Positions 7,451 to 20,798 of a stretch of DNA of 64,000 nt are shown piece by piece. Source of the stretch: Enteractinococcus fodinae. Its GTDB lineage: Bacteria; Actinomycetota; Actinomycetes; Actinomycetales; Micrococcaceae. The translations under genes were made by a program, and so were the position numbers. Location of the stretch: positions 992,001 through 1,056,000 of the forward strand of contig NZ_JAVDYJ010000001.1 in NCBI RefSeq assembly GCF_031458395.1, given 5' to 3'. Positions within the stretch are counted from its first letter, which is position 1. Each line of letters begins with the position of its first letter. The notes below the pieces were generated by a model that was given only the letters and a program-made list of their open reading frames with translations, was not told where the DNA came from and searched no databases.

Positions 7451-8503
7451 ATGGACGTTCAAACTAAACTTCGGCCACGGGCCAAGCGCGCAGGTGTCTA
7501 TCTGGCGGTCTTGGTTTTCATCACGCTGTTCATCCCTACCCCGTACACCATTCAATCTCCGGGGCCGACATTCGACACGTTGGAACAAGTCGAATTCGAC
7601 GGGGAAGCACACGACATGGTTGAAATCGACGGTGCCCCAACCTACCCGACCGAGGGCAGACTTGATCTAACGACGATCTCGGTGTCAGGTCCGCCAACCT
7701 CTTCATCACTGATGCTGGAGGTCCTTTATCATGCGGTACAGCCGTATCCTGCCATAACCCCTGCGCAGCTGATCTACCCGCCTGACACCACCGGTGATGA
7801 AGTTCGCAGTCAAAACGCTGAAGCGATGGCCGATTCGCAATCCTGGGCGGTCGCAGCCGCGCTCGAACACCTAGATATCGACTATCAGCAGCGCTTATTT
7901 GCGCTGGATTTCACAGAAGAGTCGCCTGCTGCCGGCATCCTCGAGCCCGATGATGAAATTCTCAGTGTCAACGGGACCGAAATAACCGGCCACGCCCAAT
8001 TAGTCAATACGATCCAGGAAGCCCAGGGCCAACCGGTTGAGTTGCGGGTTCGTCGTGATGACGACGAACAGACCTTTACGATCCCCGTGACGCAAGGTGA
8101 GGACGGAACGTATCAGATCGGGGTCTACCTGGATTCCGAGTTTGAGTTCCCCCTGGATGTAGATATTCATCTGCAAGACGTTGGTGGACCCTCTGCCGGT
8201 TTGATCTTTAGCTTGGCTCTGATTGACCGGATGACCCAGGAGTCGGTGACCGAGGGTGAACATATCGCCGGGACCGGGACGATTGATCCGGACGGCACCG
8301 TCGGGCCGATCGGGGGGATCCAGCAGAAGGTCATCGCAGCGGCTTCTGAAGGGGCCACCATTTTCTTGGCACCGGAACGCAACTGCCAAGAAATAACTTA
8401 TGTTCCAGCTAACATCACCGTTTACAGTGTGGATACACTAGACACGGCATTGGAAATTCTGGATGCGCCAACAGGTGAAAGAAATTACGCAACCTGTTCG
8501 TGA
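7451..8503 (+). CDS. PDZ domain-containing Lon-like (S16) serine protease, YlbL family
   Basis: A 350-residue membrane-anchored protease. Residues about 14-34 form one membrane helix, a PDZ domain spans about 155-220 (GILEPDDEILSVNGTEI), and the C-terminal S16 domain carries the Ser-Lys dyad: Ser in GGPSAGLIFSLALID and Lys in GPIGGIQQKVIAA. The domain faces outward and probably degrades or processes envelope proteins. In M. tuberculosis the equivalent (Rv3194c) precedes the UPF0182 gene, as here, where UPF0182 begins 73 bases downstream, suggesting co-transcription. Confidence 0.93.
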   Translation: MDVQTKLRPRAKRAGVYLAVLVFITLFIPTPYTIQSPGPTFDTLEQVEFDGEAHDMVEIDGAPTYPTEGRLDLTTISVSGPPTSSSLMLEVLYHAVQPYPAITPAQLIYPPDTTGDEVRSQNAEAMADSQSWAVAAALEHLDIDYQQRLFALDFTEESPAAGILEPDDEILSVNGTEITGHAQLVNTIQEAQGQPVELRVRRDDDEQTFTIPVTQGEDGTYQIGVYLDSEFEFPLDVDIHLQDVGGPSAGLIFSLALIDRMTQESVTEGEHIAGTGTIDPDGTVGPIGGIQQKVIAAASEGATIFLAPERNCQEITYVPANITVYSVDTLDTALEILDAPTGERNYATCS

Positions 8504-11896: not shown

Positions 11897-12246
11897 GCGT
11901 TCCGTCTACTTTCTACCTTCCCATTGTGCGCTACTAAGGAATACCGGTCGACGTTCGTCGGTAGCCATTTTCTCGCGTTCGCTTTTCTTTTCCGCTTCGC
12001 TGTGCGTGCTGCATCACTACGAGGTTTTCGACACTTCACTGCTAGAGCACGATTTCGGAGGAGCTGGACCCGAGCGCACTGTGGTGTCGGTCGGTAATCT
12101 ATAGAGGAAGCCGCTCGGAGCGGTTCTGCCGCGATCCTGGAAAACTTGGACCGACCTCGCAGGGGACGACCAGGAAGTGTTCGGGCTTCATGACGTCGAC
12201 ATCCAGAAAAATATATCAAAATAGAGCTGACAGGAAAGGACGGCGA
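11897..12246. other. Non-coding gap before htrA-like gene
   Basis: 350 bases with pyrimidine-rich stretches and no convincing gene. Short open frames on both strands lack ribosome binding sites or recognisable sequence. The only signal is AGGAAAGG just before the ATG at 12247. The promoter of the protease gene presumably lies here but I cannot place it. Confidence 0.5.
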
Positions 12247-13491
12247 ATGCCCCAAACATGGCCACACGACCCAGAGCGTCGAACTGACCAGCCCGAGAAC
12301 GGCTCCTATAACCCACCTCCGCCACCACCGGCATCGCAACCGAACGAGCGCAAGTCGAAGCGTTTCGGTTGGCCCGCGCTGATTGCAGCGGTGGCGGTCG
12401 CGGCTCTATTGGGCGGCGCCGTCGGGGGCTTGGCCGTCAACTCCCTAGGGACATCAACCGTTGAGGGTGCACCACAACAGACTCCACAACTCAACCGCAC
12501 AGATGACGTCACACCGACCACCGAAGCCGCCTCAGTCGCTGGCCCCTCAGTGGTGACCTTATCCGTGGGAGGGGACCAGGCACTGGGATCCGGTTCAGGT
12601 GTCATTCTGGACGACCAAGGCCACATCCTGACCAATACTCACGTGGTGACGCTCGGCGGACAGACCGCAGCAGCCAGCGTGTTGGTACAGACCTCTGACG
12701 GGGAAGTATACGAAGCCGAAGTCGTCGGTTTGGACCCAATGTCTGATCTTGCGGTCATTCGCATTGAGGCAGAAGGCCTCACCCCCATTGATATGGGCAG
12801 CGTAGATGATCTCAACGTGGGCGACCAGGCGGTAGCCATCGGCGCTCCGCTAGGCCTAGCCGGAACGGTCACCGAAGGCATTATCTCCACCTTAGACCGG
12901 ACAATTTCGGTCGCGTCCTCGGCGGTCCCAGAAGAGCCCGATACCCCCGAACAGGAAAACCCATTTGAATTCCGTCTACCGGACCAGTCAGACCCGCCAA
13001 CCGCGCAGGGCCAGATTCACCTCAACGTGATCCAGTCCGATGCGGCCATTAACCCGGGTAACTCGGGTGGGGCACTGGTGGATCATGCCGGACGACTCAT
13101 CGGCATTAACGTGGCCATTGCCACCCGTACGGAGGGCAACGTTGGACTCGGCTTTGCTATCCCTGTGGATTATGCCCAGCGGGTCGCTGAAGAACTCATC
13201 GAACATGGGGAAGCGTCGCACGGCATGCTTGGCGTGACCATCGTTCCAGCGGGGGACCAGTACGTCTCGTCTGGCGCTCAGGTTGTTGAAGTTCTCGAAG
13301 GCGGCCCGGTCGACGACACCGAGATTCGTTCTGATGATGTGATCGTGGGTATTGACGACAAAACGATCAATGATCCGGGCTCATTATCGGCGACGGTTCG
13401 AGAATACCCGGCCGGTGCGGAGGTCGAGTTAACCGTCGAGCGTGACGGCGAAGAGTTCACCGAAACGGTCACGTTGGGCGGCACGAACTAG
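12247..13491 (+). CDS. HtrA/DegP-like membrane-anchored trypsin-like serine protease (S1C)
   Basis: 414 residues from ATG 12247, chosen because AGGAAAGGACGGCGA precedes it; an upstream in-frame ATG at 12190 has no such site. A Pro-rich cytosolic tail (1-38) is followed by one membrane helix (about 40-62), a chymotrypsin-fold protease with His in ILTNTHVVTL, Asp in SDLAVIRIE and Ser in NPGNSGGALVD, then a C-terminal PDZ domain (about 310-405). The layout matches actinobacterial PepD/HtrA-type envelope quality-control proteases. A roughly 20-residue acidic/Pro insertion (EEPDTPEQENPFEF) lies before the catalytic serine. It is monocistronic or read into the PIG-L gene 16 bases on. Confidence 0.93.
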   Translation: MPQTWPHDPERRTDQPENGSYNPPPPPPASQPNERKSKRFGWPALIAAVAVAALLGGAVGGLAVNSLGTSTVEGAPQQTPQLNRTDDVTPTTEAASVAGPSVVTLSVGGDQALGSGSGVILDDQGHILTNTHVVTLGGQTAAASVLVQTSDGEVYEAEVVGLDPMSDLAVIRIEAEGLTPIDMGSVDDLNVGDQAVAIGAPLGLAGTVTEGIISTLDRTISVASSAVPEEPDTPEQENPFEFRLPDQSDPPTAQGQIHLNVIQSDAAINPGNSGGALVDHAGRLIGINVAIATRTEGNVGLGFAIPVDYAQRVAEELIEHGEASHGMLGVTIVPAGDQYVSSGAQVVEVLEGGPVDDTEIRSDDVIVGIDDKTINDPGSLSATVREYPAGAEVELTVERDGEEFTETVTLGGTN

Positions 13492-13507
13492 GGCTACACT
13501 GGTAGCC

Positions 13508-14263
13508 GTGCTTACCAAACCTGTTTTCGCAGCTGATCTCGTCTCGACTTCCAATATCCGGCGTGCGCTGGCCATTGCCGCCCACCCCGACGACATTGAC
13601 TTCGGTGCCGGGGCAACCATCGCCGCACTGACCGATGCCGGGGTAGAGGTCACCTTTTGCCTGGTGACCTCCGGCGATGCCGGCGGGTTTGAACTGGATC
13701 AGACCCGTGAACAGATGGTGGCACGTCGGCAGCAAGAACAACGCGACGCCGCACGCGAGCTCGGGGTGGATCAGGTGTGCTTCCTGGACCATTCGGATGG
13801 TTACGTCGAGCCCACGCACCGGCTGATCAGTCAGCTGGTTGGGGTCATGCGCCAGGTGCAACCCGAGGTGGTCATCAGCCAACACCCGCAGCGGAACTGG
13901 GAACGAATCCAGGCGTCCCACCCCGACCATCTAGCCGTCGGAGAAGCGACCGCGCGTGCGATCTATCCGGCGGTGGAAAATCCCTTTGCCTACCCGGAAC
14001 TTGAGCTGCCGGCATTTCACATCGGTCAATTATGGATGATGGGAGCTCCCACAGAACTGGCGAACCTGGCCGTGGACGTAACCGATCACGTGGAGCGCAA
14101 GCTCAGTGCACTGCATCGGCACGTTTCCCAGCACCCTGATCCGAAGGTCATGGACGATCGGGTGCGAGCCGCCCTGGCCGCAAATCATCCCGAGGTCGAT
14201 CGTGCCGCCGAGCGTTTTCACGTGGTGGCCGTCAATGACGAAACCACGTTTGCCGGGTTCTAA
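13508..14263 (+). CDS. PIG-L family deacetylase
   Basis: 251 residues from GTG 13508; an earlier in-frame ATG at 13442 would overlap the protease gene and adds non-conserved sequence. The metal-binding AHPDDIDFGAGA near residue 25 and the later SHPDHLAVGEAT supply the His-Asp-Asp and His ligands of the zinc-dependent N-acetylglucosamine deacetylase (LmbE/MshB) fold. MshB and Mca of mycothiol metabolism belong here, but nothing specific points to either. TACACT lies ten bases before the GTG and could be a -10 element of a nearly leaderless transcript. The 3' end overlaps the convergent sigma/anti-sigma fusion gene by four bases. Confidence 0.85.
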   Translation: MLTKPVFAADLVSTSNIRRALAIAAHPDDIDFGAGATIAALTDAGVEVTFCLVTSGDAGGFELDQTREQMVARRQQEQRDAARELGVDQVCFLDHSDGYVEPTHRLISQLVGVMRQVQPEVVISQHPQRNWERIQASHPDHLAVGEATARAIYPAVENPFAYPELELPAFHIGQLWMMGAPTELANLAVDVTDHVERKLSALHRHVSQHPDPKVMDDRVRAALAANHPEVDRAAERFHVVAVNDETTFAGF

Positions 14264-15633
14264 CCGTCGGTGAGTGGCATTTCGACCAGCGCAGCGCTTG
14301 AAGGGGTATCTGAGCCAGTCTCGGGCTCAACCGTGATCCACAACAGTTCATAAGAGTTCACCCCGCGGAACCGTACCTCGTCGTTTTCCATTTGCTCGGC
14401 AGTAAAAAGTCCTACAGACACGACATGACCGCCCGGTTCTTCAAATAACCACACCTGATAGCGTTCGTCCTCGGCAAGCTCGGGGACCTCATTGAACGAC
14501 AGGTAGGCGGCATCTTCTTCAGTCGAATAGTGCCCGGCCACCGTGGAGCCATCAAGGTCGGCGGTCACGCTGGTCACGTCGTCGGCACTATCCACCGCGC
14601 TACGGATGCGCTGGTTACCGGTATTCAGGAAAATCACCGCAACCAGCACTGCGATGACCAACACCGCACCGATGATAATGAACATCGTGCGGCTCCGCCG
14701 TTGTTGCGCTGGGTCCTCTTCGACCTCGTAGTCATCAACAGACTCGATGAACCCAATGCCCACGTTTTGTTCGGGCAGTTGATCTAACACTGATTCCAAT
14801 AACCGCGCCGGTGGGTGAGCCGAAACCCGACGATACGCCCAGGTCAGCATGCGCTGGAACAGGGCAGTCCGGGCGCGCAGTTGTGCCGCGATGTCGCGAT
14901 CCTGCCGGTTAATCCAGGCCTCCACCGCGACGGCATCATCGTCGTTGAGTGCTTGTAGTGCGTTCAGCGTGGCTAATTCACTGCCCAGCCCGACCTGAAG
15001 GTCGGTGCTCACATCGTCGGAAAATGCTGCCGTTTGACCGCCCGTTGACGACAGCGATCCCGTCACCCGGGTGGTCAGCAGCGGATCGGTGTCAGCGTTG
15101 GCCCGAATTTCGGACAGATAGTGACGAGTCAGCCGCACCGCAGCATCCCGAAGACGTGACTTCAAAGTCGGCAAGGCCACGTTGAGGTCTACAGCAGCCT
15201 CTTCGACGGTCCGACCGCCCAACCACACGGTGGTTAACGCCACGGCCTGGGCAGCGGTCAGTGGCTCCAACTCGGTTAGCTGTCCTGCGATGGCCTGCAT
15301 ACGCTCGACGGAACCGACTTCCTCGGCATCGGGACGGTGGTAGCGCCCGGTCTGCTGGGCGATCGAGTTAATCCACGCCACCACTGTGCGGTCCCGTGCT
15401 TTTTCGTCGGCGTGGTCGACATTGAAATCGAAGGTAAAGTGCGGCGCTTGTCGCCACAAGGAGATGTAGGCGTCCGTGGTGGCCTGCAGCGCGTCGTGCT
15501 CGGTGGGAAACATCGAGGTGAGCATGCCGTATACCTGCGGCGAGGTGACATCATAGAGCGCGGCGAAAGCAGCCGTGTCATCATCGCCAGCGGAACGGAG
15601 CAGTTGTGCGGGGCCAGGAGTGTAAGTGTCCAT
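14260..15633 (-). CDS. ECF sigma factor-like / RskA-type anti-sigma factor fusion, membrane-bound
   Basis: 457 residues from ATG 15633 (an in-frame TTG at 15642 is possible). Residues about 15-100 read as ECF sigma region 2 of the SigK type: AAFAALYDVTSPQVYGML, then AYISLWRQAPHF and VVAWINSIAQQ. Residues about 127-170 read as sigma region 4, with a helix-turn-helix GGRTVEEAAVDLNVALPTLK followed by SRLRDAAVRL. After a linker, about 218-265 resembles an anti-sigma domain, about 317-336 is a single membrane helix (MFIIIGAVLVIAVLVAVIF), and about 342-453 is an RskA-like extracytoplasmic domain (YQVWLFEEPGGHVVSVGLF). Normally sigK and rskA are separate adjacent genes. The region 2.4 segment lacks the basic residues usual there, so the sigma half may be degenerate or act only as a binding partner. 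Confidence 0.82.
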   Translation of the reverse strand: MDTYTPGPAQLLRSAGDDDTAAFAALYDVTSPQVYGMLTSMFPTEHDALQATTDAYISLWRQAPHFTFDFNVDHADEKARDRTVVAWINSIAQQTGRYHRPDAEEVGSVERMQAIAGQLTELEPLTAAQAVALTTVWLGGRTVEEAAVDLNVALPTLKSRLRDAAVRLTRHYLSEIRANADTDPLLTTRVTGSLSSTGGQTAAFSDDVSTDLQVGLGSELATLNALQALNDDDAVAVEAWINRQDRDIAAQLRARTALFQRMLTWAYRRVSAHPPARLLESVLDQLPEQNVGIGFIESVDDYEVEEDPAQQRRSRTMFIIIGAVLVIAVLVAVIFLNTGNQRIRSAVDSADDVTSVTADLDGSTVAGHYSTEEDAAYLSFNEVPELAEDERYQVWLFEEPGGHVVSVGLFTAEQMENDEVRFRGVNSYELLWITVEPETGSDTPSSAALVEMPLTDG

Positions 15634-15692: not shown

Positions 15693-16202
15693 CTAACTCC
15701 CAGCGAAATCGTGTTGACGCCAGGCTTCATAGAGCACGATCGAGGCCGAGTTGGCAAGGTTGAGTGATCTGCGTCCGGATTGCATGGGTAAATACACGGT
15801 CTCGGTGATCATCTCGTCGGTTAACACTTCGGCGGGCAATCCGGTGGACTCCTGACCAAAGACGAGCACATCGCCGGGTTGATAGGCAATCTCGTCGTAG
15901 CGCACGGTGCCGCTGCCGGTGAACGCAAAGACGCGTTCGGGCTGCAGGGCCTCCCACGCGGCAGCAAGATTGGCGTGGAGGGTGACGAGCGCCAGGTCGT
16001 GATAGTCCAGCCCAGCCCGACGCAGGTGTGCGTCGTCGAAGTTAAATCCAAGCGGTTCAACCAGGTGCAATTCTGCTCCGGTGATGGCGGCTAAGCGGAT
16101 GGCATTGCCAGTGTTGCCAGGGATCTCCGGGGTGTGAAAGAGCAGGCGGAACTGCGGATTCGTGGCCTGCGGGGTACGGGGTGCGGTTTCGTGTGGATTC
16201 AT
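15693..16202 (-). CDS. trmL: tRNA (cytidine(34)-2'-O)-methyltransferase, SpoU/TrmL family
   Basis: 169 residues. After a short disordered N-terminus the protein is a minimal SPOUT methylase: LLFHTPEIPGNTGNAIRLAA (motif 1), GDVLVFGQESTGLP (motif 2) and SLNLANSASIVLYEAWRQ (motif 3), which together form the trefoil-knot AdoMet site. That pattern and length fit TrmL, which 2'-O-methylates the wobble base of tRNA-Leu isoacceptors. The ATG overlaps the stop of the upstream J-domain gene by four bases, so the two are probably translated together. Confidence 0.9.
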   Translation of the reverse strand: MNPHETAPRTPQATNPQFRLLFHTPEIPGNTGNAIRLAAITGAELHLVEPLGFNFDDAHLRRAGLDYHDLALVTLHANLAAAWEALQPERVFAFTGSGTVRYDEIAYQPGDVLVFGQESTGLPAEVLTDEMITETVYLPMQSGRRSLNLANSASIVLYEAWRQHDFAGS

Positions 16203-17068
16203 AATTTGGCGATGAGTTGTCCCATGGCGGCCCGGTCGACGACGTTGTGTTCGCCGGTGCCGATAAAGAATTTGATGTCCCGGACCGCGTCCATGATTGA
16301 GGCTGGTACTTCGGTCAGTCCCAAGGTGTTGAGGCGGTCAGGGGCCTGGATGGTGGGAGCGTGGGGATTGGATGAAAACAACACCGCGAAACCGCCGACC
16401 TCGAAATCGGGGAGGAGTTTTTTCAGCTCGGCCACCGAGTCGGTCAAATCGGGTAACTCGATGCGTTTGCGGCCGACGAGCTCGCTGCCGTTGAACTGGT
16501 ACACGTCTGGCGGGGTGTGTTGGACAGCAAAGACTGCGACTTTTGTGCCGCCCAGCAGCACGGTGTCCAGCGTCAGTTTTCTGGACAGTTTCACTCCGTG
16601 AAAAATACGAACAGCGGGCAGGGCCGCTTGTACGCGCGATTGCAGAACTTCGGATAACCGGGCGTGGAGCGCACGCTGTTTTCTGCCGAAAAACCCACTG
16701 GGGATACTGCCGTGCACGAGCTGTTGGGCCAACAGCGAATCAACGGTTATCGGTGGTTTCGTCTGAGTGCGAACTGGGCCGTCAGCAAGAGGCGGCCGGA
16801 AGCGTACCGGTTCTGGTTCCGAGCGGGGTTTCGTGCTGGTGCGTCTTGGACGCGGCGACTCGGGAGCCGGTTCTGGCGAGGAATCAAGCTCGGACAGTTG
16901 GTTCCATGCCTTGGTGATTTGATCGAAGCGCGCCGCGTCGCCACCGCGGTCCGGGTGGTGCTTTTTAGCCAACGCTAAATAGGCTCGGCGAATCTGTTTT
17001 TCGCTCGCCGATGGGCTGACCCCAAGCACGCGGTAGGGGTCCAGGGAGTTACCACGATTGTCTGACAC
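16199..17068 (-). CDS. J-domain (DnaJ-like) protein with uncharacterised C-terminal domain
   Basis: 289 residues. Residues about 10-60 are a J domain with the HPD tripeptide in AKKHHPDRGGDAARF, expected to stimulate DnaK ATPase. There is no Gly/Phe region or zinc-finger domain, so it is not DnaJ itself. A basic/Pro linker (about 62-110) leads to a C-terminal domain (about 115-289, beginning VDSLLAQQLVHGSIPSGFF) that I do not recognise; its alternating hydrophobic segments suggest a mixed alpha/beta fold. Four-base overlap with trmL downstream suggests the pair is one transcript, linking a chaperone cofactor with a tRNA methylase. Confidence 0.8.
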   Translation of the reverse strand: MSDNRGNSLDPYRVLGVSPSASEKQIRRAYLALAKKHHPDRGGDAARFDQITKAWNQLSELDSSPEPAPESPRPRRTSTKPRSEPEPVRFRPPLADGPVRTQTKPPITVDSLLAQQLVHGSIPSGFFGRKQRALHARLSEVLQSRVQAALPAVRIFHGVKLSRKLTLDTVLLGGTKVAVFAVQHTPPDVYQFNGSELVGRKRIELPDLTDSVAELKKLLPDFEVGGFAVLFSSNPHAPTIQAPDRLNTLGLTEVPASIMDAVRDIKFFIGTGEHNVVDRAAMGQLIAKL

Positions 17069-19488: not shown

Positions 19489-19824
19489 ATGACTTACGAT
19501 TCGACTGCGTCTTCGTTGACGGGCACCACCGATCCGGCGATCCTTGAAGAACTGTTGGCCATCCGCTCTAGCATCGACAATATTGATGCCACGCTGGTGT
19601 ATTTATTAGCTGAGCGGTTCAAATGCACTCAAAAGGTGGGCAAACTCAAAGCCGAGCACGACTTACCGCCCAGCGACCCCGAACGCGAAAAGGCTCAAAT
19701 CAAGCGGCTCCACGCCCTGAGCCAAGACGCAGATCTAGATCCCGCATTCGCCGAGAAGTTCCTGAACTTCATCATCGACGAGGTCATCCGCCACCACAAG
19801 GCCATCTCTCAGGAGCGTCCTTGA
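19489..19824 (+). CDS. Chorismate mutase, AroQ class
   Basis: 111 residues with the all-helical AroQ pattern: ELLAIRSSIDNIDATLVYLLAERF, then KVGKLKAEHDLPPSDPEREK and a last helix FLNFIIDEVIRHHKAISQ. The catalytic Arg, Lys and Gln/Glu positions of the fold are recognisable. It converts chorismate to prephenate for Phe/Tyr synthesis. GGAG lies seven bases before the ATG. It lacks a signal peptide, so it is the cytosolic form. It is in line with mnmA (10-base gap) and overlaps the next gene by four bases. Confidence 0.93.
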   Translation: MTYDSTASSLTGTTDPAILEELLAIRSSIDNIDATLVYLLAERFKCTQKVGKLKAEHDLPPSDPEREKAQIKRLHALSQDADLDPAFAEKFLNFIIDEVIRHHKAISQERP

Positions 19825-20798
19825 CCCAGCCGATCGGTGTGGTTGAAGGGACGTTTGCCGGTACCGATCCGCACGCCGTCTACGCACTTGAGCTTTCGGA
19901 GATCAGCTCCCCACACATTCCGGCGCTCGCAGAATTGCCCGACGTCGGGCCGCATGCCACCGGTCTGGGGAACATCGCTGCCAACATCAGCCTGCCCTTC
20001 GAGCTGCGTACTTATGGGTGGCAGCTGCAACGCGGGGTCCGCATTAGTTCCTCCGATCAACATCGGGCCATAGCGCATCGAGACAGCGTGATCCAAGCCC
20101 TCGTCGATGTCGCCCAAGATGATGCCGTGCCAGAAGTGTCAGTAAGGCTGCCCGGCCCGGTGACCACGATGATCGACGGGATGTTGCCCTCTGGACAGCG
20201 CATCGTGCGCGATCCGGGTGCACGCCATGATGTTGCAGCAGCATGGGTCGACGCGGTTGAAAATCTCACGAGTCGAATCCACGACGTCGTCGGCGCTCGC
20301 ACCACAATCTTTGTGCAAGAACCACAGGCCGGCCAGGCAATCGAAGGGCGAATCCGCTCAGTGTCAGGCGCCGATGTCGAACGAGCCTTGGACATCAACG
20401 AGGTGCGCTTTATGTGGCAGCAAGCGGCGACCACAGGCGCGACCGTGTTGATCGACACGACCACCGAGCTAGCTGCCACGGCCGCAGAAGTGGGATCAGT
20501 TGCATTGGCCTTGCCGAAGGGGAGAACGCATCAGGCCGAGCGCACATGGGAACTCGTCGATACACTTATCTCCGCTGAGAAACCCGTAGCCCTGTACATG
20601 CCGCGCCACGGCGACCCGAACCGCTTTGCCGAGGAATTTATTCACCAGTACCTCGATTGGGGACTACCACCGGAAAGCGTCGGCTATCTTCGATTAACGA
20701 GCCGATTCGAAATGGGCTCCGAGCAGACAGTTGGCCCCGGCCTGGAATGGCTGCGCACCATGGCCGAGCATGCACCTGGATATCTCTCGACGCTGTAA
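19821..20798 (+). CDS. MetE-like (cobalamin-independent methionine synthase fold) protein
   Basis: 325 residues from TTG 19821. The start is fixed by AGGAG five bases upstream and by a TTGA overlap with the chorismate mutase stop; a longer in-frame extension to 19623 would run wholly inside that gene. The protein resembles the short actinobacterial methionine synthase/UROD-like TIM-barrel proteins (Rv3015c type), with conserved-looking LPGPVTTMIDGMLPS and a C-terminal GSEQTVGPGLEWLRTMAEHA. I do not see the classic His-Cys-Glu-Cys zinc set of MetE, so true methionine synthase activity is uncertain. It ends the cysteine desulfurase-mnmA-chorismate mutase run and is followed by a terminator. Confidence 0.72.
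   Translation: MTQPIGVVEGTFAGTDPHAVYALELSEISSPHIPALAELPDVGPHATGLGNIAANISLPFELRTYGWQLQRGVRISSSDQHRAIAHRDSVIQALVDVAQDDAVPEVSVRLPGPVTTMIDGMLPSGQRIVRDPGARHDVAAAWVDAVENLTSRIHDVVGARTTIFVQEPQAGQAIEGRIRSVSGADVERALDINEVRFMWQQAATTGATVLIDTTTELAATAAEVGSVALALPKGRTHQAERTWELVDTLISAEKPVALYMPRHGDPNRFAEEFIHQYLDWGLPPESVGYLRLTSRFEMGSEQTVGPGLEWLRTMAEHAPGYLSTL

Follow-up and report, generated by a model that had tools for sequence, protein, structure and literature searches.

A sigK-rskA gene fusion in Micrococcaceae with a probably inactive sigma half

On the minus strand of the window, which is the whole 64,000-nucleotide stretch of Enteractinococcus fodinae DNA analysed here, a single open frame (ATG at 15633, stop at 14260-14262) encodes a 457-aa protein in which a SigK-like sigma part and an RskA-type anti-sigma factor are joined in one chain. 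The gene is shown here to be orthologous to the separate sigK-rskA operon of other Micrococcaceae, and we assign a probability of roughly 0.6 to the reading that it is a former sigK-rskA pair whose sigma half would no longer serve RNA polymerase as a sigma factor (a pseudo-sigma), its product being a membrane-bound one-chain regulator. Judging from aligned residues, the sigma half has probably ceased to work as a sigma factor; that it was kept after losing residues needed for transcription start points to a new job. That the two parts form one chain had been proposed in a sequence-only reading of the window and is confirmed by 49 stop-free fused ORFs from six genus-level groups, namely g1 (the Yaniella/Enteractinococcus group, to which the window belongs; 8 ORFs) and five others, g2 (1), g4 (8), g13 (22), g15 (9) and g17 (1).

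Layout and homology of the two halves

The features of the gene and of its surroundings are collected in Table 1. The protein has the RskA-type layout of a cytosolic anti-sigma domain, a membrane helix and RskA_C. The last of these scores far over the Pfam cut-off in the window's protein (65.9 bits, E 5.9e-18), and the anti-sigma model NF052375 matches residues 225-447 (E 3.7e-24, 85.9 bits, model cut-off 100). There is one hydrophobic segment, at about residues 312-343, with basic residues preceding it, and by hydropathy and flanking charge the N-terminus probably lies inside. The linker created by the fusion carries a motif of the DP..L..VT type that is common to five of the six genera and missing from g15.

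Table 1. Coordinates of the fused gene, its parts and its neighbours in the window
Feature	Position	Strand	Basis or remark
HtrA-like protease	12190..13491	+	found in 45/47 loci, split and fused alike
PIG-L family deacetylase, converging on the fused gene	13442..14263	+	found in 46/47 loci
Fused SigK-like/RskA-like gene	14260..15633	-	457 aa; profile searches and relatives
RskA_C outer domain (residues 345-457)	14263..14601	-	Pfam
Membrane helix (residues 317-336)	14626..14685	-	hydropathy and flanking charge
Anti-sigma domain, RskA type (residues 205-290)	14764..15021	-	NCBIfam, PDB match, alignment
Linker arising from the fusion (residues 173-204)	15022..15117	-	alignment
Sigma region 4-like helix-turn-helix (residues 122-171)	15121..15270	-	Pfam, conservation
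Recognition-helix core PTLKSRLRD (residues 155-163)	15145..15171	-	88% identity among five genera; 69% once g15 is included
Sigma region 2-like part (residues 8-100)	15334..15612	-	PDB match, alignment, profile-profile comparison
Region 2.3/2.4 equivalent (residues 84-100)	15334..15384	-	SigK HRRAVD replaced by QQT, a two-residue gap and G
Region 2.2 equivalent (residues 45-62)	15448..15501	-	T-D in place of the SigK Q-E pair
trmL-like gene	15693..16202	-	its end lies 59 nt upstream of the fused ATG; 46/47 loci
dnaJ-domain gene, upstream of trmL	16199..17068	-	found in 42/47 loci

In the sigma half of the window's protein, the Pfam models Sigma70_r2 (15.4 bits, E 0.016) and Sigma70_r4_2 (14.9 bits, E 0.022) both remain under their cut-offs, so that on Pfam alone the test of this half is only borderline. 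The NCBIfam SigK model PRK09646 matches residues 9-169 (E 7.8e-19, 68 bits, model cut-off 226), the best phmmer match in the PDB is SigK 4nqw_A (E 9.5e-10), with its RskA partner 4nqw_B matched weakly over residues 219-285 (E 0.34), and when the profile of 18 fused proteins is compared with that of nine split SigKs the probability is 99.8% (E 2.9e-30). At a Pfam threshold of E<=0.01, region 4 (PF04545) is detected in 13 of the 18 fused proteins and region 2 in one, against nine of nine for each in the split control, while RskA_C is detected in all 18 and RskA_N in ten; RskA_N is absent from the window's protein. The HMM check of the sigma regions suggested by the sequence-only reading came out positive for the SigK model, the PDB and the profile-profile comparison, and borderline for the single Pfam domains of the window's protein. 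On these sequence comparisons, the sigma homology of the N-terminal half is clear despite the single-domain Pfam scores.

The locus and the reach of the fusion

In other genera, the same place is occupied by sigK and rskA as adjacent genes, ordered as in the fusion, and in the two split loci that were read completely the rskA start lies one base past the sigK stop. We take these two loci to contain, in addition, a methyltransferase-like and two electron-transfer-flavoprotein-like genes that are absent from the window. The neighbours were followed in 47 loci (32 fused, L058 and 14 split); L072 has no conserved neighbour, and in L039 the PIG-L gene is 4.5 kb away and the stretch covered stops short of HtrA. 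An unrooted tree built by a quick search from TrmL, PIG-L and HtrA, with L072 and 16 short-flanked fused loci omitted, separates 33 fused from 13 split loci on either side of one branch (SH-aLRT 100), a pattern that looks like one fusion event in the ancestor of the six genus-level groups. The nearness of the HtrA-like protease gene, which the sequence-only reading had remarked on, carries no special weight because HtrA also lies near the split operon.

Two further genes of the window deserve mention in their own right. At 19623-20798 (+), beside mnmA, a 391-aa protein is encoded that is 55-59% conserved in seven named relatives and that matches nothing in Pfam or NCBIfam at E<=1. At 7451-8503 (+), a PDZ plus Lon-type (S16) protease resembles SepM with 134.4 bits, under the model cut-off of 200.

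The fused set was drawn from named loci and from a search of 295 genomes of Micrococcaceae. Seven named relatives, from Enteractinococcus, Yaniella or a Micrococcaceae MAG, are 78-82% identical to the window's protein. One of the 49 ORFs, L040, contains a short N run, and two g15 sequences were left uncounted, namely L058, in which an N stretch is followed by a stop, and a weak match in G139; a third g15 genome, G155, is 71% complete and gave no match to the fused protein. With these relatives and 49 stop-free ORFs at hand, the stop or frameshift error that the sequence-only reading had advised looking for was not found, and the fusion, whose conservation it had also wished to see compared, is conserved in six genus-level groups of the family. 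The same 49 ORFs from six genera rule out that two genes were merely joined by an error in sequencing or assembly.

Outside the family, no stop-free match over both halves was among the matches listed in a search of 396 genomes of the order, nor in a search of 394 genomes of the class, an overlapping sample; the profile leans to Micrococcaceae and the class search used a strict cut-off (1e-36), which means that remote fusions may have gone undetected. Both halves were matched in G470 and G733 outside the family, and these were rejected as fusions as they contain stops and correspond to split pairs. Among the fused proteins, a conserved C-terminal tail of the GP.YGG type follows RskA_C in those of g2, g4 and g15 and in some of those of g13 (e.g. 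L074, L075, L031, L029), and is absent from g1 and g17.

Residues, selection and promoters

The exact residues of region 2.2 that contact the beta-prime clamp come from sigma-70 work, and the RRAVD motif of region 2.4 has a role in reading the -10 element. Regions 2.1/2.2 are described as the clamp-binding part of sigma, and RskA as sandwiched between sigma2 and sigma4, in PMC7406223. The Q-E/D pair of region 2.2 is present in all 14 split SigKs and in none of the 49 fused proteins, and the same counts hold for the second R and for the D of RRAVD. Fused and split sequences, once aligned, bear out the earlier remark that region 2.4 is devoid of its expected basic residues, and the accompanying hint of degeneration was right; residues for clamp and -10 contacts are lost in 49/49 fused proteins. 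The lost core and -10 positions differ between genera. Part of these motifs survives, which counts against the pseudo-sigma reading: the first R of HRRAVD is retained in 29/49 fused proteins, the second clamp position is E or D in 9/49 (all eight g1 rows have D), and the clamp Q persists in 1/49. Nor would the absence of a few contact residues be proof that core binding is gone. The two cysteines tied to SigK activity with RskA in PMC7509140 are present in 14/14 split SigKs, and in 1/49 and 0/49 fused proteins. The separate SigK-type sequences of the fused genomes serve as a control, and all 22 examined (out of 25 matches, with motifs read by eye) keep Q[ED] and RRA[VI]D.

The KSR motif of the region-4 recognition helix is kept in 40/49 fused proteins, including 8/8 of the window's genus, and in 14/14 split SigKs, and is found in 0/9 of g15; since the gene persists in g15 with a decayed recognition helix, DNA binding is not the function common to the six genera. 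Between the five other fused genera the recognition-helix core is 88% identical, with 38% for region 2.2 and 32% for region 2.3/2.4, whereas the same segments of split SigKs reach 100%, 80% and 88%, respectively. Region 2.4 is conserved within each fused genus.

Judged by dN/dS, the sigma half is under purifying selection, with values of 0.06 (g1; 0.061, dS being near saturation), 0.20 (g4), 0.23 (g13) and 0.43 (g15), as compared with 0.09 (0.090) for split sigK, so that the fused values exceed that of split sigK in g4, g13 and g15 and not in g1. The corresponding values for the RskA part are 0.06, 0.28, 0.33 and 0.46. These estimates used 8/8 genes in g1, 7/8 in g4, 16/22 in g13, 7/9 in g15 and 13/14 split loci. 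Identity in sigma minus identity in rskA amounts to 25.5 points in split pairs and to 2.7-8.6 points in four fused genera, with pairs more than 97% identical in rskA dropped, and from this shrunken excess the extra constraint imposed by polymerase and promoter seems to be gone.

The pattern CCATCC-N15-CCGAAT, which we take to resemble the mycobacterial SigK promoter, was sought in the 700 nt upstream with at most one mismatch. It occurs at 13/14 split and 0/49 fused loci, and in less than 1% of shuffled sequence; the motif derives from the split loci together with a SigK consensus, which makes the split count partly circular but not the fused one. Sites with two mismatches are present at eight fused loci. 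Genome-wide, the exact pattern with a spacing of 15 or 16 has 43 matches in 14 split and 57 in 48 fused genomes (one each in a backward control), numbers that are not used as evidence, most of the matches having no assigned gene. The genome-wide pattern search and those for fasciclin genes, separate SigKs and RskA_C covered 62 genomes, with G073 omitted.

A fasciclin gene is present in 13/14 split and 19/48 fused genomes. Upstream of it, CCATCC-N15-CCGAAY with at most one mismatch is found in 16 of 17 fused genomes examined (of the 19) and in 8/13 split genomes, and with up to two mismatches in 13/13 split genomes, a count without shuffled control. The fasciclin promoters of fused genomes at first spoke for an active fused sigma, and a separate SigK provides another source: it is found in 19/19 fused genomes with a fasciclin gene and in 4/29 without one. 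The idea that the surviving SigK-type promoters are served by the fused protein as their sigma was set aside on the separate SigK of all 19 genomes; the fused protein may still help. An RskA_C match adjoins the separate SigK in 22 of 23 fused genomes, the SigK of the 23rd (G148) being near a contig end. At E<=1e-25, no separate SigK was found in g1 (0/7, including the window's genome), g17 (0/1) or g15 (0/9), and in g1 genomes the sole RskA_C match is the fused protein. Three proteins of the window's genome match Sigma70_r2 at E<=0.01, none of them of the SigK type: one that we read as SigA-like, one of the SigH type and a helicase-sigma fusion.

In g13 genomes (e.g. L120, L110, L111), the separate sigK-rskA pair adjoins the fasciclin gene, and the fasciclin promoter is mostly CCATCC-N15-CCGAAC. 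The helicase-sigma ORF lies outside the window (G000:C1:300145-302376; L081:1-2232) and combines an SF2 helicase (ResIII, Helicase_C) with sigma-70 regions 1.2, 2, 3 and 4; among 100 family genomes at E<=1e-80 it has one other match, in G009, to the helicase half and within an 874-aa ORF, and none in the four same-genus genomes of that sample.

Interpretation and comparison with known systems

The favoured reading would begin with fusion of sigK and rskA, followed by loss of the clamp-binding residues, of those reading the -10 element and of the SigK-type promoter, with true SigK work being done by a separate sigK-rskA pair or being absent. Less certainly, the pseudo-sigma may pack onto the anti-sigma domain of the same chain on the cytosolic side of the membrane, in the manner of SigK and RskA; predicted structures of the whole protein and of the sigma half (from eight close sequences) have a mean pLDDT of 40.7 and 47.3, and models of such low confidence lend the folded-back state no support. 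With similar reserve, the outer RskA_C domain may sense, or be held by, something outside the cell. More speculatively, opening of the pair, or site-1/site-2 proteolysis, might expose the region-4 helix-turn-helix, which could then bind DNA or a partner; the lost recognition helix of g15 speaks against this. A more specific version, offered tentatively and at less than even odds, is that the ex-sigma part would be unable to join RNA polymerase and would act as a gated DNA- or partner-binding module, with the ex-anti-sigma domain as its internal latch.

An active tethered sigma of the IutY type, stored at the membrane, freed by site-1/site-2 proteases and using new contacts in place of the lost ones, appears unlikely. 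The architecture does resemble that of IutY, whose sigma domain is released by Prc and RseP according to PMC5411451, the window's genome encodes an RseP/Rip1-type site-2 protease (TIGR00054, 143.5 bits, just below the cut-off of 147.55), HtrA is nearby, and the within-genus conservation of region 2.4 together with purifying selection on the sigma half would suit a working protein. The core and -10 residues, however, are missing from every fused protein, in ways that differ between genera, the separate SigKs of fused genomes keep them, and the SigK-type promoter was not found at the fused locus. Moreover, the sigma half is separated from the membrane by the entire anti-sigma domain, and cleavage within the membrane alone would leave the inhibitor attached. 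Release of a cis-tethered sigma by proteolysis, as raised in the sequence-only reading, is hence unsupported by the residues and the promoter, and it is also disfavoured by the separate SigK of all 19 fused genomes with a fasciclin gene.

It is quite improbable that the protein is an anti-sigma factor in trans, in which the sigma half would be a built-in decoy or binding regulator and the anti-sigma domain would act on another sigma. Such a role would fit the retention of the anti-sigma domain and of its sigma4-contacting helix, with Leu at the helix-1 contact position (named in PMC7406223) in 15 of 18 aligned sequences by eye; against it, the separate SigK of 22/23 fused genomes already has an RskA_C match beside it, none of the three Sigma70_r2 matches in the window's genome is of the SigK type, and a sigma half in cis should out-compete a partner in trans. 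Least credible is a relict heading for loss, in which the sigma half decays passively and what still matters is at most the RskA_C membrane part: divergence does grow, g15 combines a lost KSR in 9/9 with dN/dS that is high across the gene (sigma 0.43, RskA part 0.46), and L058 is broken, possibly through an assembly fault, but 49 ORFs from six genera are free of stops, the sigma half of g1, g4 and g13 has dN/dS at or below that of the RskA part, and five genera keep the recognition helix.

If the protein is indeed a membrane-bound regulator with a pseudo-sigma half, one chromosomal place offers a comparable series, from split operon to fusion, to loss of sigma residues and to further decay in one genus, in which the motif-keeping SigKs of some of the same genomes are built-in controls. 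The question of whether a sigma factor can become something that is not a sigma factor is thereby made testable. The labels "sigma factor" or "anti-sigma factor" may mislead when applied to the fused proteins.

No description of a fused SigK/RskA protein was found in the open-access literature searched, and the 2021 ECF reclassification may list it. Among known systems, the C-terminal extensions of ECF41, ECF42 and CorE are not known to be membrane-anchored anti-sigma factors of the RskA type, and they are attached to an active sigma part. These soluble extensions share with the fused protein a regulatory part in cis (PMC8999054). SigK-RskA (ECF18/ECF19; complex 4NQW) is homologous over both halves, has the same gene order and is represented at this locus in relatives by a split pair that carries a SigK-type promoter; the fused protein differs in being one chain, in having lost Q-E/D, RRAVD and the cysteine pair, and in that the promoter was not found. 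The sequence-only reading knew of no example described in detail, which was not right, since IutY of Pseudomonas putida is a sigma/anti-sigma protein in a single chain (PMC5411451). IutY, listed as ECF243 in PMC8999054, likewise combines a cytosolic sigma, a membrane segment and an anti-sigma part in one polypeptide, and PMC5411451 describes its anti-sigma part as periplasmic and its sigma domain as working once released. In the fused protein, by contrast, an RskA-type anti-sigma domain lies between sigma and the membrane helix, and the sigma half appears inactive, unlike the working one of the known single chain IutY.
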